DNA of 64,000 nt, taken from positions 1 through 64,000 of the forward strand of contig JAGFIT010000015.1 of NCBI GenBank assembly GCA_024103385.1, given 5' to 3'. Source of the DNA: Vicingus serpentipes. Lineage in GTDB: Bacteria; Bacteroidota; Bacteroidia; Flavobacteriales_E; Vicingaceae. Of this stretch, positions 52,021-57,742 are shown piece by piece. Within the stretch, counting starts at the first letter, position 1. Each line of letters begins with the position of its first letter. A program made the position numbers and the translations under genes. The notes under the pieces were generated by a model. The model saw only the letters and a program-made list of their open reading frames with translations. It ran no database searches and had not been told where the DNA came from.

Positions 52021-53259
52021 TTAATCTTCAAATTCTTGTAGAAGAATATTTCTAACATCTTCGATTGTTTCAATTTCTAAATCAGTTCTTTTTACTAAAT
52101 CTTCAATAGAAAGTTCTAGCACACTTTTAGCAGAATCACAACCTATTGATTTTAATTCAGCAATTACCCAATCTTCTATTTCATCCTTGAATTCATCTAA
52201 TGCAACATCATCAGTATCGTCTTCCATGTCTCTGTAAACATCTATTTCAAAACCTACCAGTTTGCCTGCTAATTTGATGTTGTGTCCACCTCTACCAATA
52301 GCTAGTGATACCTGATCTGGTTTTAAAAATACTTCTGCTGTTTTGTTTTCTCTATCTAATTTGGTTGCAGTTATTTTTGCAGGGCTTAATGCTCGTTGAA
52401 TATACAGTTCGGTATTATTGGTAAAGTTAATCACATCAATATTTTCATTTCTTAATTCTCTAACAATACCGTGTATTCTTGCTCCTTTCATTCCAACACA
52501 TGCTCCAACAGGATCAATTCTATCATCATAAGATTCAACAGCAACTTTTGCTCTTTCTCCAGGTTCTCGCACTATATTTTTAATAGTGATTAACCCATCA
52601 TATATTTCAGGAACTTCTAATTCAAATAATCGTTCTAAGAACAAAGGAGAGGTTCTTGATAGAATAATCAATGGTTTGTTGTTTTTCATTTCTACTCTAA
52701 TCACAACTGCTCTTACGCTATCTCCTTTTTTGAATCTATCATTAGAGATTTGTTCCGTTTTTGGGAGAATTAACTCATTATCCTCATCATCTAAGATTAA
52801 TATTTCTCGTTTCCACACTTGGTATACTTCACCAGTAATTAAATCTCCAACTCTGTCTTTATATTGTTTATAAATGTTGTCTTTTTCTAATTCTAATACT
52901 TTAGACATCAAGTTTTGTCTTAAAGAAAGAACAGTTCTTCTTCCAAAGTCTTCCATTTTTACCTCTTCAGACACTTCTTCTCCTACTTCAAAATCGGGCT
53001 CTATTTTAATAGCGTCTGAATAGGCAATTTCTTTATTCTCATCTTCTACCTCTCCATCAAGAACAATTTCTCTGTTTCTCCAGATTTCTAAATCTCCTTT
53101 ATCGACATTTACGATAAAGTCAAAATTTTCATCACCACCAAATCTTTTTTTGATAGTGCTTCTAAAAACACTTTCTAAGATATTCATTAATGTAGCTCTA
53201 TCAATGTCTTTGAATTCTTTGAACTCCTGAAACGAATCTATTAAGCTTAAACTTTCCAT
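52021..53259 (-). CDS. nusA: Transcription termination/antitermination factor NusA
   Basis: RNA polymerase-binding factor acting in pausing, intrinsic termination and antitermination. The 412 residues have an N-terminal domain with the conserved FKDIDRATLMNILES and FDFIVNVDKGDLEIWRNREIV, an S1 domain (LITGEVYQVWKREILIL), two KH domains (DDRIDPVGACVGMKGARIHGI and VSLAIGRGGHNIKLAGKLVG, each slightly split here) and a short acidic C-terminus with one HhH-like motif. It lies 7 bases behind rimP. Confidence 0.96.
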   Translation of the reverse strand: MESLSLIDSFQEFKEFKDIDRATLMNILESVFRSTIKKRFGGDENFDFIVNVDKGDLEIWRNREIVLDGEVEDENKEIAYSDAIKIEPDFEVGEEVSEEVKMEDFGRRTVLSLRQNLMSKVLELEKDNIYKQYKDRVGDLITGEVYQVWKREILILDDEDNELILPKTEQISNDRFKKGDSVRAVVIRVEMKNNKPLIILSRTSPLFLERLFELEVPEIYDGLITIKNIVREPGERAKVAVESYDDRIDPVGACVGMKGARIHGIVRELRNENIDVINFTNNTELYIQRALSPAKITATKLDRENKTAEVFLKPDQVSLAIGRGGHNIKLAGKLVGFEIDVYRDMEDDTDDVALDEFKDEIEDWVIAELKSIGCDSAKSVLELSIEDLVKRTDLEIETIEDVRNILLQEFED

Positions 53260-53266
53260 TTTTATT

Positions 53267-53734
53267 TTATTTAAATGATATGATTATTGTTGTTTCCTTT
53301 ATGTTGTCAAAAGGAATTTTCTTTTGTTTAACTATTTTTTCTTTTTTCTTTCTTCCTTCCATTTTTTCTTTATAAGAGAATTCTACAGTAATTTCTTCTT
53401 CACCAACTTCCTTTAACTCTCCTTTTATTTTTTCATTATCGTTAGTAATAACTTTTACTTCTTTCCCAATATTTTTAATATACTGTTCTTTAACTCTGAA
53501 TGGTTTATCTAATCCAGCAGAAGAAACATGTAATTCAAAATCTTCCTCTTCTCTATCTAAATTATGCTCTATCGTTTTACTTAAATCAACACAATCTTGA
53601 ATGGAGACACCTTTCAAACTATCCACTTCAAGTAAAATATTATTTCCAGACCTAACATCTAAAGCTACAACAAAACATTCTTTTTCAGTTAATTTTTCTG
53701 AAATCAAATTTTTTATATGATCTGTTGTTATCAT
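53267..53734 (-). CDS. rimP: Ribosome maturation factor RimP
   Basis: Needed for 30S subunit maturation. The 155 residues match the family: LTEKECFVVALDVRSGNNILLEVD (two pieces), VSIQDCVDLSKTIEHNLD, EDFELHVSSAGLDKPF and a C-terminal Sm-like domain rich in Lys/Glu. The ATG at 53734 was chosen. A TTG at 53746 would lie within the U-tract of a terminator hairpin. First gene of rimP-nusA-infB. Confidence 0.93.
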   Translation of the reverse strand: MITTDHIKNLISEKLTEKECFVVALDVRSGNNILLEVDSLKGVSIQDCVDLSKTIEHNLDREEEDFELHVSSAGLDKPFRVKEQYIKNIGKEVKVITNDNEKIKGELKEVGEEEITVEFSYKEKMEGRKKKEKIVKQKKIPFDNIKETTIIISFK

Positions 53735-53744
53735 TATTTTAGTC

Positions 53745-53777
53745 AAAAAAAGAGGGAACTTTTCGTTCCCTCTTTAC
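53745..53777 (-). terminator. Intrinsic terminator between the LolA-like gene and rimP, inside the presumed rimP leader
   Basis: An 11-bp perfect stem (53749-53759 with 53765-53775, AAAGAGGGAAC/GTTCCCTCTTT) has a 5-base loop and seven T on the minus strand. It ends transcription from the LolA-like gene. It also lies downstream of the promoter at 53800-53831 and 14 bases upstream of the rimP ATG, so transcripts of the rimP operon must pass it. Confidence 0.85.
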
Positions 53778-53799
53778 TTCTTCTTTTATTTTACAGACG

Positions 53800-53831
53800 C
53801 AAATGTAGTTATTTTTTTGTTTCACTGCAAA
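53800..53831 (-). promoter_or_regulatory. Promoter of rimP-nusA-infB (TTTG-N20-TACATTTG)
   Basis: On the minus strand TTTG (53831-53828) is followed after 20 bases by TACATTTG (53807-53800). Both elements and spacing fit the Bacteroidota consensus. The start would be near 53793, giving a leader of about 60 bases that contains the terminator hairpin at 53745-53777. The -33 part lies just behind the LolA-like stop codon. Confidence 0.55.
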
Positions 53832-53833
53832 TT

Positions 53834-54472
53834 TTATTCTCTTAAGTCAATAATTTCATATTTCGGGTATTTGGTTTTGTCGAATGTAAATTGACTATCA
53901 GGTATTCCTTGGTTAGGCGTAAAAGATTTTACTACATAAGTGAATGTTCCTCCGTCTTTTCCATAAACTTTTACTTGTGTAATTTGTGTTTTTTCTTTGC
54001 TTATATACAATGCTATTCTATGAAATGATTTTTTATCAGCTTCTATAGGGTAGAGGTTGATAATTTGAATACCATTTTCTTCTTTCACAAATTTGTATTT
54101 AAAACCTTTTTCATAGAGGGTGAATATTTTATTAGGACTGATATACTCATCATCCTCTTCATCAGGTAAGTTATTAATTTGTACTTCTTCAGCATCTTTT
54201 AAAATAGTCCAAATGCTTTTGTTATTAGAAATTACATCTTGACCTTTTATGGATAGTAAGTAATTATCGCCTTTTATTTCAATTTTACCTAATTGTGTTT
54301 CATTGATTCCTTCTTCTTTGTTGTTGATGTTGTACTGAAACTCTGCTTTTATAGTGGTGTACGCTTTTGTTTTAGCGCTTAATTTATCTAAAATGGCTTT
54401 TGCTTGCTGATCTTGAGCAAAACTGTTTAGGCCTATAATACTTGTTAATAGAACTGAAATAAATGTTTTCAT
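53834..54472 (-). CDS. LolA-family outer-membrane lipoprotein carrier protein
   Basis: Periplasmic lipoprotein chaperone family. The 212 residues start with a signal peptide (FISVLLTSIIGLNSFAQ). They then show AKAILDKLSAKTKAYTTIKAEFQY, GKIEIKGDNYLLSIKG, NKSIWTIL, YPIEADKKSFHRIALYIS and a C-terminal DSQFTFDKTKYP, the LolA-like curved sheet pattern. It follows ftsK by 24 bases. In E. coli lolA also lies next to ftsK, which supports the call. Confidence 0.85.
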   Translation of the reverse strand: MKTFISVLLTSIIGLNSFAQDQQAKAILDKLSAKTKAYTTIKAEFQYNINNKEEGINETQLGKIEIKGDNYLLSIKGQDVISNNKSIWTILKDAEEVQINNLPDEEDDEYISPNKIFTLYEKGFKYKFVKEENGIQIINLYPIEADKKSFHRIALYISKEKTQITQVKVYGKDGGTFTYVVKSFTPNQGIPDSQFTFDKTKYPKYEIIDLRE

Positions 54473-57022: not shown

Positions 57023-57052
57023 AAAAAAAGAGGGCATATTTCCCTCTTTTTT
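57023..57052 (-). terminator. Terminator of the 57074-57742 gene
   Basis: An 8-bp stem AAAGAGGG/CCCTCTTT (57027-57034 with 57042-57049) with a 7-base loop and T run on the minus strand follows the DUF4412-like gene closely. Confidence 0.8.
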
Positions 57053-57073: not shown

Positions 57074-57742
57074 TTATTCTCCTCCTGCTTGTCCTCCCAT
57101 CATTTTTTGGAATTCTTCCATGGTCATGGTTTGATAATCTTCAGGTGTTGTAAACTCAACAGATGCAACTTTTTCTTGATTAACCTCTTTAACCGTCATA
57201 ACCATTTTAATGCCTTGATTATGTATTTCATATTGCATAGGGAAACCTTTTAATCCTTTGTATTGCGATTTTGCCTCTTGTGCATTAATTTCTTCAGTAT
57301 AAAATACAGTTAAAGTTTCACTTTTTTCTCCATAAGTAATTTCAGCTTTTTTGCATTTGTAGCCTGCAATTTCCTTAGTTTCGTCCATGTAAGTTATTTT
57401 TGGATCTTGTTTAGGTTCCTGTTTTTTCAACTCCTCTTTATTCATTTTAATAGCCACTTTATTACCCATCATATTCATTAATGTAGTAGATGTTTCAGCA
57501 TCTCCATCATAAATAGATATAGTAGACCCCATAGTGGTATTCTGTTCTGTCCTTGTTTTAGCTCCTTTTATTTTCATCAATGTTTCTTTAGGAAGCATGG
57601 CTTCGTACCCTTCCATTTCTTCGGGAAGATCTTCATACTCGATGTTGTACGTAATTGTTCCTTCAAATGCTTTTTGTGCAAAGACATTGCTAGTTGCAAT
57701 AATTAGAACAGATAAAATAAAAGTAGAAACTAATTTTTTCAT
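57074..57742 (-). CDS. DUF4412-like secreted protein
   Basis: A 222-residue protein with a signal peptide (FILSVLIIATSNVFAQ) followed by KAFEGTITYNIEYED. Further motifs are TYMDETKEIAGYKCKKAEITYG, TVFYTEEINAQEA, KGFPMQYEIHNQGIKMVMTV and the C-terminal PEDYQTMTMEEFQKMMGG. This fits the Bacteroidota DUF4412/GLPGLI-like group of periplasmic proteins of unknown function. The next gene upstream is a diverged paralogue with the same order of motifs. Confidence 0.72.
   Translation of the reverse strand: MKKLVSTFILSVLIIATSNVFAQKAFEGTITYNIEYEDLPEEMEGYEAMLPKETLMKIKGAKTRTEQNTTMGSTISIYDGDAETSTTLMNMMGNKVAIKMNKEELKKQEPKQDPKITYMDETKEIAGYKCKKAEITYGEKSETLTVFYTEEINAQEAKSQYKGLKGFPMQYEIHNQGIKMVMTVKEVNQEKVASVEFTTPEDYQTMTMEEFQKMMGGQAGGE

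Follow-up and report, generated by a model that had tools for sequence, protein, structure and literature searches.

The genes rimP, nusA and infB bring together the control of ribosome assembly, transcription and the start of translation. Transcription attenuation is, to our knowledge, little described in the Bacteroidota. The closest known systems are the leaders of this same operon. In the survey of Naville and Gautheret (2010), the rimP-leader was the most widespread attenuator, with NusA proposed as its effector; their text names the Firmicutes and the Gammaproteobacteria and holds no word beginning with "Bacteroid" (PMC2965389). The gammaproteobacterial rimP leader has its own Rfam family, RF01770. 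In the metY-rimP-nusA-infB operon of E. coli, the tandem terminators t1 and t2 lie behind metY and precede rimP, and the operon is under the control of its own product NusA (PMC6511841). Within the Bacteroidota, mention has been made in passing of a structured, transcribed element 5′ of rimP in Flavobacterium psychrophilum that is also conserved elsewhere in the Flavobacteriaceae and has no Rfam match; the passages of the main text that concern it give no hairpin, mechanism or spread beyond the family (PMC9723704).

We analyzed a leader of this operon in a Bacteroidota genome. In the window, i.e., the whole 64-kb stretch of DNA under study, the minus strand carries in order ftsK, lolA, a promoter, a hairpin with a T-tract, rimP, nusA and infB, the encoded RimP, NusA, IF-2, LolA and FtsK proteins being assigned by Pfam. 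Like the rimP-leader of Naville and Gautheret (PMC2965389), it has a terminator in the 5′ region of rimP-nusA-infB, a G-rich 5′ arm and a C-rich 3′ arm followed by a U-tract (here GAGGGAAC / GTTCCCTC and a T-run), and a conserved stem with no visible antiterminator. Unlike theirs, the leader is much shorter, lies on a TAnnTTTG promoter and has the motif GGGRAC(...)GUYCCC in place of GGGc(...)gCCC: the GGG/CCC core is present, the next pair is A-T in the window (GGGAAC) and G-C in most of the class, and the lower-case c-g is unmatched. With RF01770 the Bacteroidota element shares operon and place; a search with that model, for which E. coli served as the positive control (102 bits), gave no match in the window (E up to 5) or in ten Bacteroidota rimP loci. 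No known Rfam element was found in the window, the listed matches lying far below thresholds. The presence of terminators upstream of rimP is common to this locus and to that of E. coli (PMC6511841); however, the window has a single hairpin instead of a tandem pair and no tRNA before rimP, and the control by NusA that is described in E. coli is what we infer for the Bacteroidota.

We read the hairpin best as a dedicated leader attenuator, and the element as a Bacteroidota variant of the known rimP-leader kind that has probably been seen once before, in the Flavobacteriaceae. Going by the brief description in that source, the F. psychrophilum element is very probably the same as the one described here. 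To this we add, all as read from genome sequences, a description of the element's anatomy and distribution, and the findings that the element is specific to rimP, independent of the upstream gene and built on a stem conserved in sequence. If correct, this reading extends the rimP-leader to another major phylum, and a conserved attenuator of this type would give the long-standing question of how NusA controls its own synthesis a small element that is easy to test; moreover, the Bacteroidota stem could become an Rfam family of its own.

Promoter and leader in the window

The original prediction had placed a TTTG-N20-TACATTTG promoter behind the LolA-like gene, a leader of about 60 nt between its start and the rimP ATG, and an 11-bp hairpin with a T-tract separated from that ATG by a 14-nt gap; all three are borne out by the sequence (Table 1). 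The promoter, which spans 53831–53800 on the minus strand with a 20-nt spacer, is a perfect match to the Bacteroidota promoter consensus, TAnnTTTG being the flavobacterial -7 box consensus as given in PMC9723704. It went undetected in a sigma-70 scan of the window because Bacteroidota promoters differ. The arrangement exceeds what chance would give: with both strands counted, TTTG-N19-21-TAnnTTTG occurs only three times in the window, and the succession of a TAnnTTTG box, a terminator hairpin and an ORF start just once, before rimP. From the position of the box, transcription of rimP is predicted to start at about 53795, with the hairpin about 20 nt beyond, and the resulting 60-nt leader folds with -19.2 kcal/mol versus a shuffle mean of -6.9 (z = -5.6; 0/200 shuffles as good).

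Table 1. Features of the rimP leader, its operon and the adjoining upstream gene, in coordinates of the window
Feature	Position	Strand	Basis
-33 element TTTG	53828..53831	(-)	sequence
-7 box TACATTTG (TAnnTTTG, Bacteroidota sigma-A type)	53800..53807	(-)	sequence; flavobacterial consensus PMC9723704
Predicted untranslated leader, ~60 nt	53735..53795	(-)	start site predicted from box
Leader hairpin, 11 bp, loop GAAAA	53749..53775	(-)	sequence, folding; conserved in relatives
Hairpin 5′ stem arm AAAGAGGGAAC	53775-53765	(-)	sequence
Hairpin loop GAAAA	53764-53760	(-)	sequence
Hairpin 3′ stem arm GTTCCCTCTTT	53759-53749	(-)	sequence
Terminator T-tract, 7 T	53745..53751	(-)	sequence
rimP, 155 aa	53267..53734; ATG 53734-53732	(-)	Pfam RimP_N and RimP C-terminal domain
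nusA, 412 aa (NusA_N, S1, KH), candidate feedback regulator	52021..53259	(-)	Pfam
infB (IF-2), 870 aa	49308..51920	(-)	Pfam
lolA-like gene, upstream, same strand as rimP	53834..54472	(-)	Pfam

Conservation of the leader and its stem

Searches across the genus, family and phylum yielded a collection of rimP loci whose upstream DNA we read. The TAnnTTTG box lies upstream of rimP in all 39 loci of the same family and all 29 from other families of the class. The complete arrangement of a TAnnTTTG box, 10–32 nt, a terminator-type hairpin and rimP is seen in 39/39 and 27/29 of these, respectively, the other two class loci having a looser hairpin that is not easily scored. Under strict rules, the order of promoter and then hairpin is recovered in 29/39 family and 24/29 class loci versus 0.1% or less of dinucleotide shuffles, a comparison that overstates independence because the loci are related; with slightly relaxed hairpin rules it is present in all 66 loci searched (39 from the family and 27 from the class). 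The original prediction had named the conservation of this order in relatives as a check, and it holds through family and class. In these loci, the box lies 10–32 nt from the stem (median 23.5), and the interval from the predicted start to the stem (median 18.5 nt) shows low conservation; the U-tract adjoining the stem is conserved in the relatives, and the distance from hairpin to ATG is variable. We also observed that the spacer between box and stem in the 66 family and class leaders contains GAAA in 58% versus 27% of shuffles and CGAAA in 24% versus 4%, in sequences that are related and not independent.

In other classes of Bacteroidota, a hairpin with a T-tract, judged by position and shape only, precedes rimP in 41 of 61 loci versus 1.5% of shuffles. 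The stems there are quite different (e.g., GAAAGTGGGG..CCCCACTTTT or TCGCCCC..GGGGCGATTTTTG). Just 23 of these 61 loci have the exact TAnnTTTG box; thus, the promoter order is established for the family and class and not beyond them. Two variant arrangements can be noted. Eight loci of another class share a near-identical hairpin, GAAAGTGGGG..CCCCACTTTT, 60–95 nt before the rimP match with no exact TAnnTTTG box; this is the form that the leader takes in a separate lineage. In five loci from Bacteroidales/Bacteroidetes MAGs, a gene for tRNA-Gln (TTG) directly precedes the leader hairpin and replaces the TAnnTTTG promoter, a tRNA-Gln-hairpin-rimP plan that is the same as that of metY-terminators-rimP in E. 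coli.

Across the rimP leaders of family and class, the stem GAGGGRAC/GUYCCCUC is nearly invariant, taking mostly the form GAGGGGAC/GTCCCCTC in the class and GAGGGAAC/GTTCCC, then TC or TT, in the genus of the window. Flavobacterium johnsoniae (CI04) also carries the stem. Column identity is 70–97% in the stem and 32–58% in the spacer; 95.8% of cells remain paired, a level that 0/500 shuffles reach, and both sides have changed in 20 cells. The terminators of upstream genes in the genus relatives have sequences unrelated to the leader stem. Two loci from one other family of the class bear the stem GAGGCACGC/GCGTGCCTC in place of GAGGGGAC/GTCCCCTC, with several paired changes and with position and T-tract kept.

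When 31 relatives and 197 class genomes were searched with a covariance model of the stem, the best matches included rimP leaders, among them those of 17 genomes outside the training set. Among the loci checked, all 43 rimP matches have TAnnTTTG 11–26 nt before them; none of the 27 non-rimP matches has the promoter, and most of them lie after a gene end or between convergent genes, a placing which suggests that hairpins with the same stem act as terminators in these genomes. Two further model matches with the promoter present are followed by ORFs of 155 and 153 aa, which are probably rimP. Across 84,980 genomes, a scan for the exact pattern hit at least 118 places. Among the 118 matches listed, 109 lie before rimP, or 110 if one counts a Mesonia locus that is cut by the end of its slice and reads like a rimP start; only two of the remaining eight matches listed carry Bacteroidota names. 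Away from rimP, the 0.92 Mb of DNA from these loci contain a single gene with the promoter-hairpin-ORF order. The stem sequence appears to be essentially exclusive to rimP. We considered a regulon in which the same hairpin would serve other genes and rejected it, as the other model matches are mostly promoterless gene-end terminators.

Probable attenuation, a candidate role for NusA and alternative modes of action

The order kept in family and class, the hairpins that precede rimP in most of the other loci sampled from the phylum and a stem essentially exclusive to rimP strongly support the proposal that transcription of rimP-nusA-infB is subject to termination in its leader. On this comparative evidence, attenuation of the operon is highly probable. 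The main reading goes further: the hairpin and T-tract would be an intrinsic terminator dedicated to rimP-nusA-infB, at which termination is partial and NusA is the likeliest tuner, and to this combination we assign a probability of about 0.6. RNA polymerase starting at about 53795 would reach the terminator within ~50 nt; a fraction of polymerases would terminate there, giving a free leader RNA of ~45–50 nt, and the remainder would read through into rimP, nusA and infB. The leader leaves no obvious space for an aptamer, antiterminator or leader peptide, so the read-through fraction would most simply be determined by factors that act on the polymerase or the hairpin. NusA is the likeliest of these because it is encoded by the operon and is able to stimulate intrinsic termination, as it does globally in B. 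subtilis (PMC8060035). More NusA would then mean more termination and lower expression of the operon. Of the autoregulation by NusA that had been predicted, the presence of nusA in the operon is corroborated by Pfam; the NusA step, like the termination itself and its partial nature, is one that we infer, and, by analogy with the systems above, the odds that NusA is the tuner are about even.

The leader T-runs average 4.6 versus 5.9 at gene-end terminators with the same stem, in a comparison of related sequences and model-chosen matches. These shorter runs fit a leaky terminator; the window's own T-run, at 7 T, is long and may make its terminator a strong one instead of a weak one.

Other modes of control were sought within the leader. 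In the leaders of relatives, the spacer is no more complementary to the stem arms than in shuffles, and an antiterminator was rejected for that reason. A leader peptide was likewise rejected, since in the window the leader has no ATG ahead of the hairpin. The short, poorly conserved interval from start to stem shows no features of a riboswitch, T-box or leader peptide, i.e., no conserved aptamer or leader ORF, and NusA-type AGAAC motifs are not enriched in the leader.

The very short leader with no evident aptamer, antiterminator or leader peptide would also suit a terminator that senses nothing and acts as a fixed brake keeping the operon at a low basal level. We consider this unlikely: the near-invariance of the stem across families exceeds what a plain terminator needs, and the terminators of upstream genes in the genus relatives are completely different in sequence. 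The same conservation could instead mean that another RNA-binding protein recognizes the stem, and the products of rimP-nusA-infB bind RNA or ribosomes. It is conceivable, if slightly less likely than a fixed brake, that the stem is an attenuator or binding site for a factor such as RimP, IF-2, a ribosomal protein, NusG or a small RNA; however, the precedent, in E. coli, belongs to NusA. A broader possibility, which we would not favor but take seriously, is that one hairpin with an almost invariant stem serves as attenuator throughout the phylum and that this stem is the receptor for a product of the operon, either NusA or a RimP or IF-2 that binds it specifically. The tRNA-terminator-rimP plan would then have arisen separately in Bacteroidales with tRNA-Gln and in E. 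coli with metY. Were this so, the Bacteroidota would tune transcription and translation factors together by a switch lying within ~50 nt of the promoter.

The proximity of the hairpin to the start codon raises the question of whether it acts on the mRNA, by protecting its 5′ end or by hindering ribosome loading 14 nt downstream. This is improbable, since the U-tract conserved beside the stem is unneeded in an mRNA-stability hairpin and the distance to the ATG varies among relatives. Least credible of all is that the hairpin serves solely to end the ftsK-lolA transcript. The original prediction had allowed that it might simply end the upstream transcript, and in the window a same-strand gene does end upstream; nevertheless, this fails as a general explanation, as 76 of the 99 named loci among the matches listed have a divergent ORF as their closest upstream neighbor, so that the hairpin cannot merely end the transcript of that neighbor. 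Furthermore, many relatives have a separate terminator ahead of the promoter, and the hairpin keeps its place before rimP even as the gene upstream changes. As an extra role beside attenuation of rimP-nusA-infB, the idea retains some force: the window has no other terminator in the sequence between lolA and the promoter, and its hairpin may for that reason also end ftsK-lolA transcripts.

Before ftsK, and just behind the end of the gene at 57742–57074, the window carries a palindromic hairpin, GAGGG..CCCTC, flanked by tracts of A and T (57024–57052). It has the look of a common gene-end terminator, and its core is similar to that of the leader hairpin.
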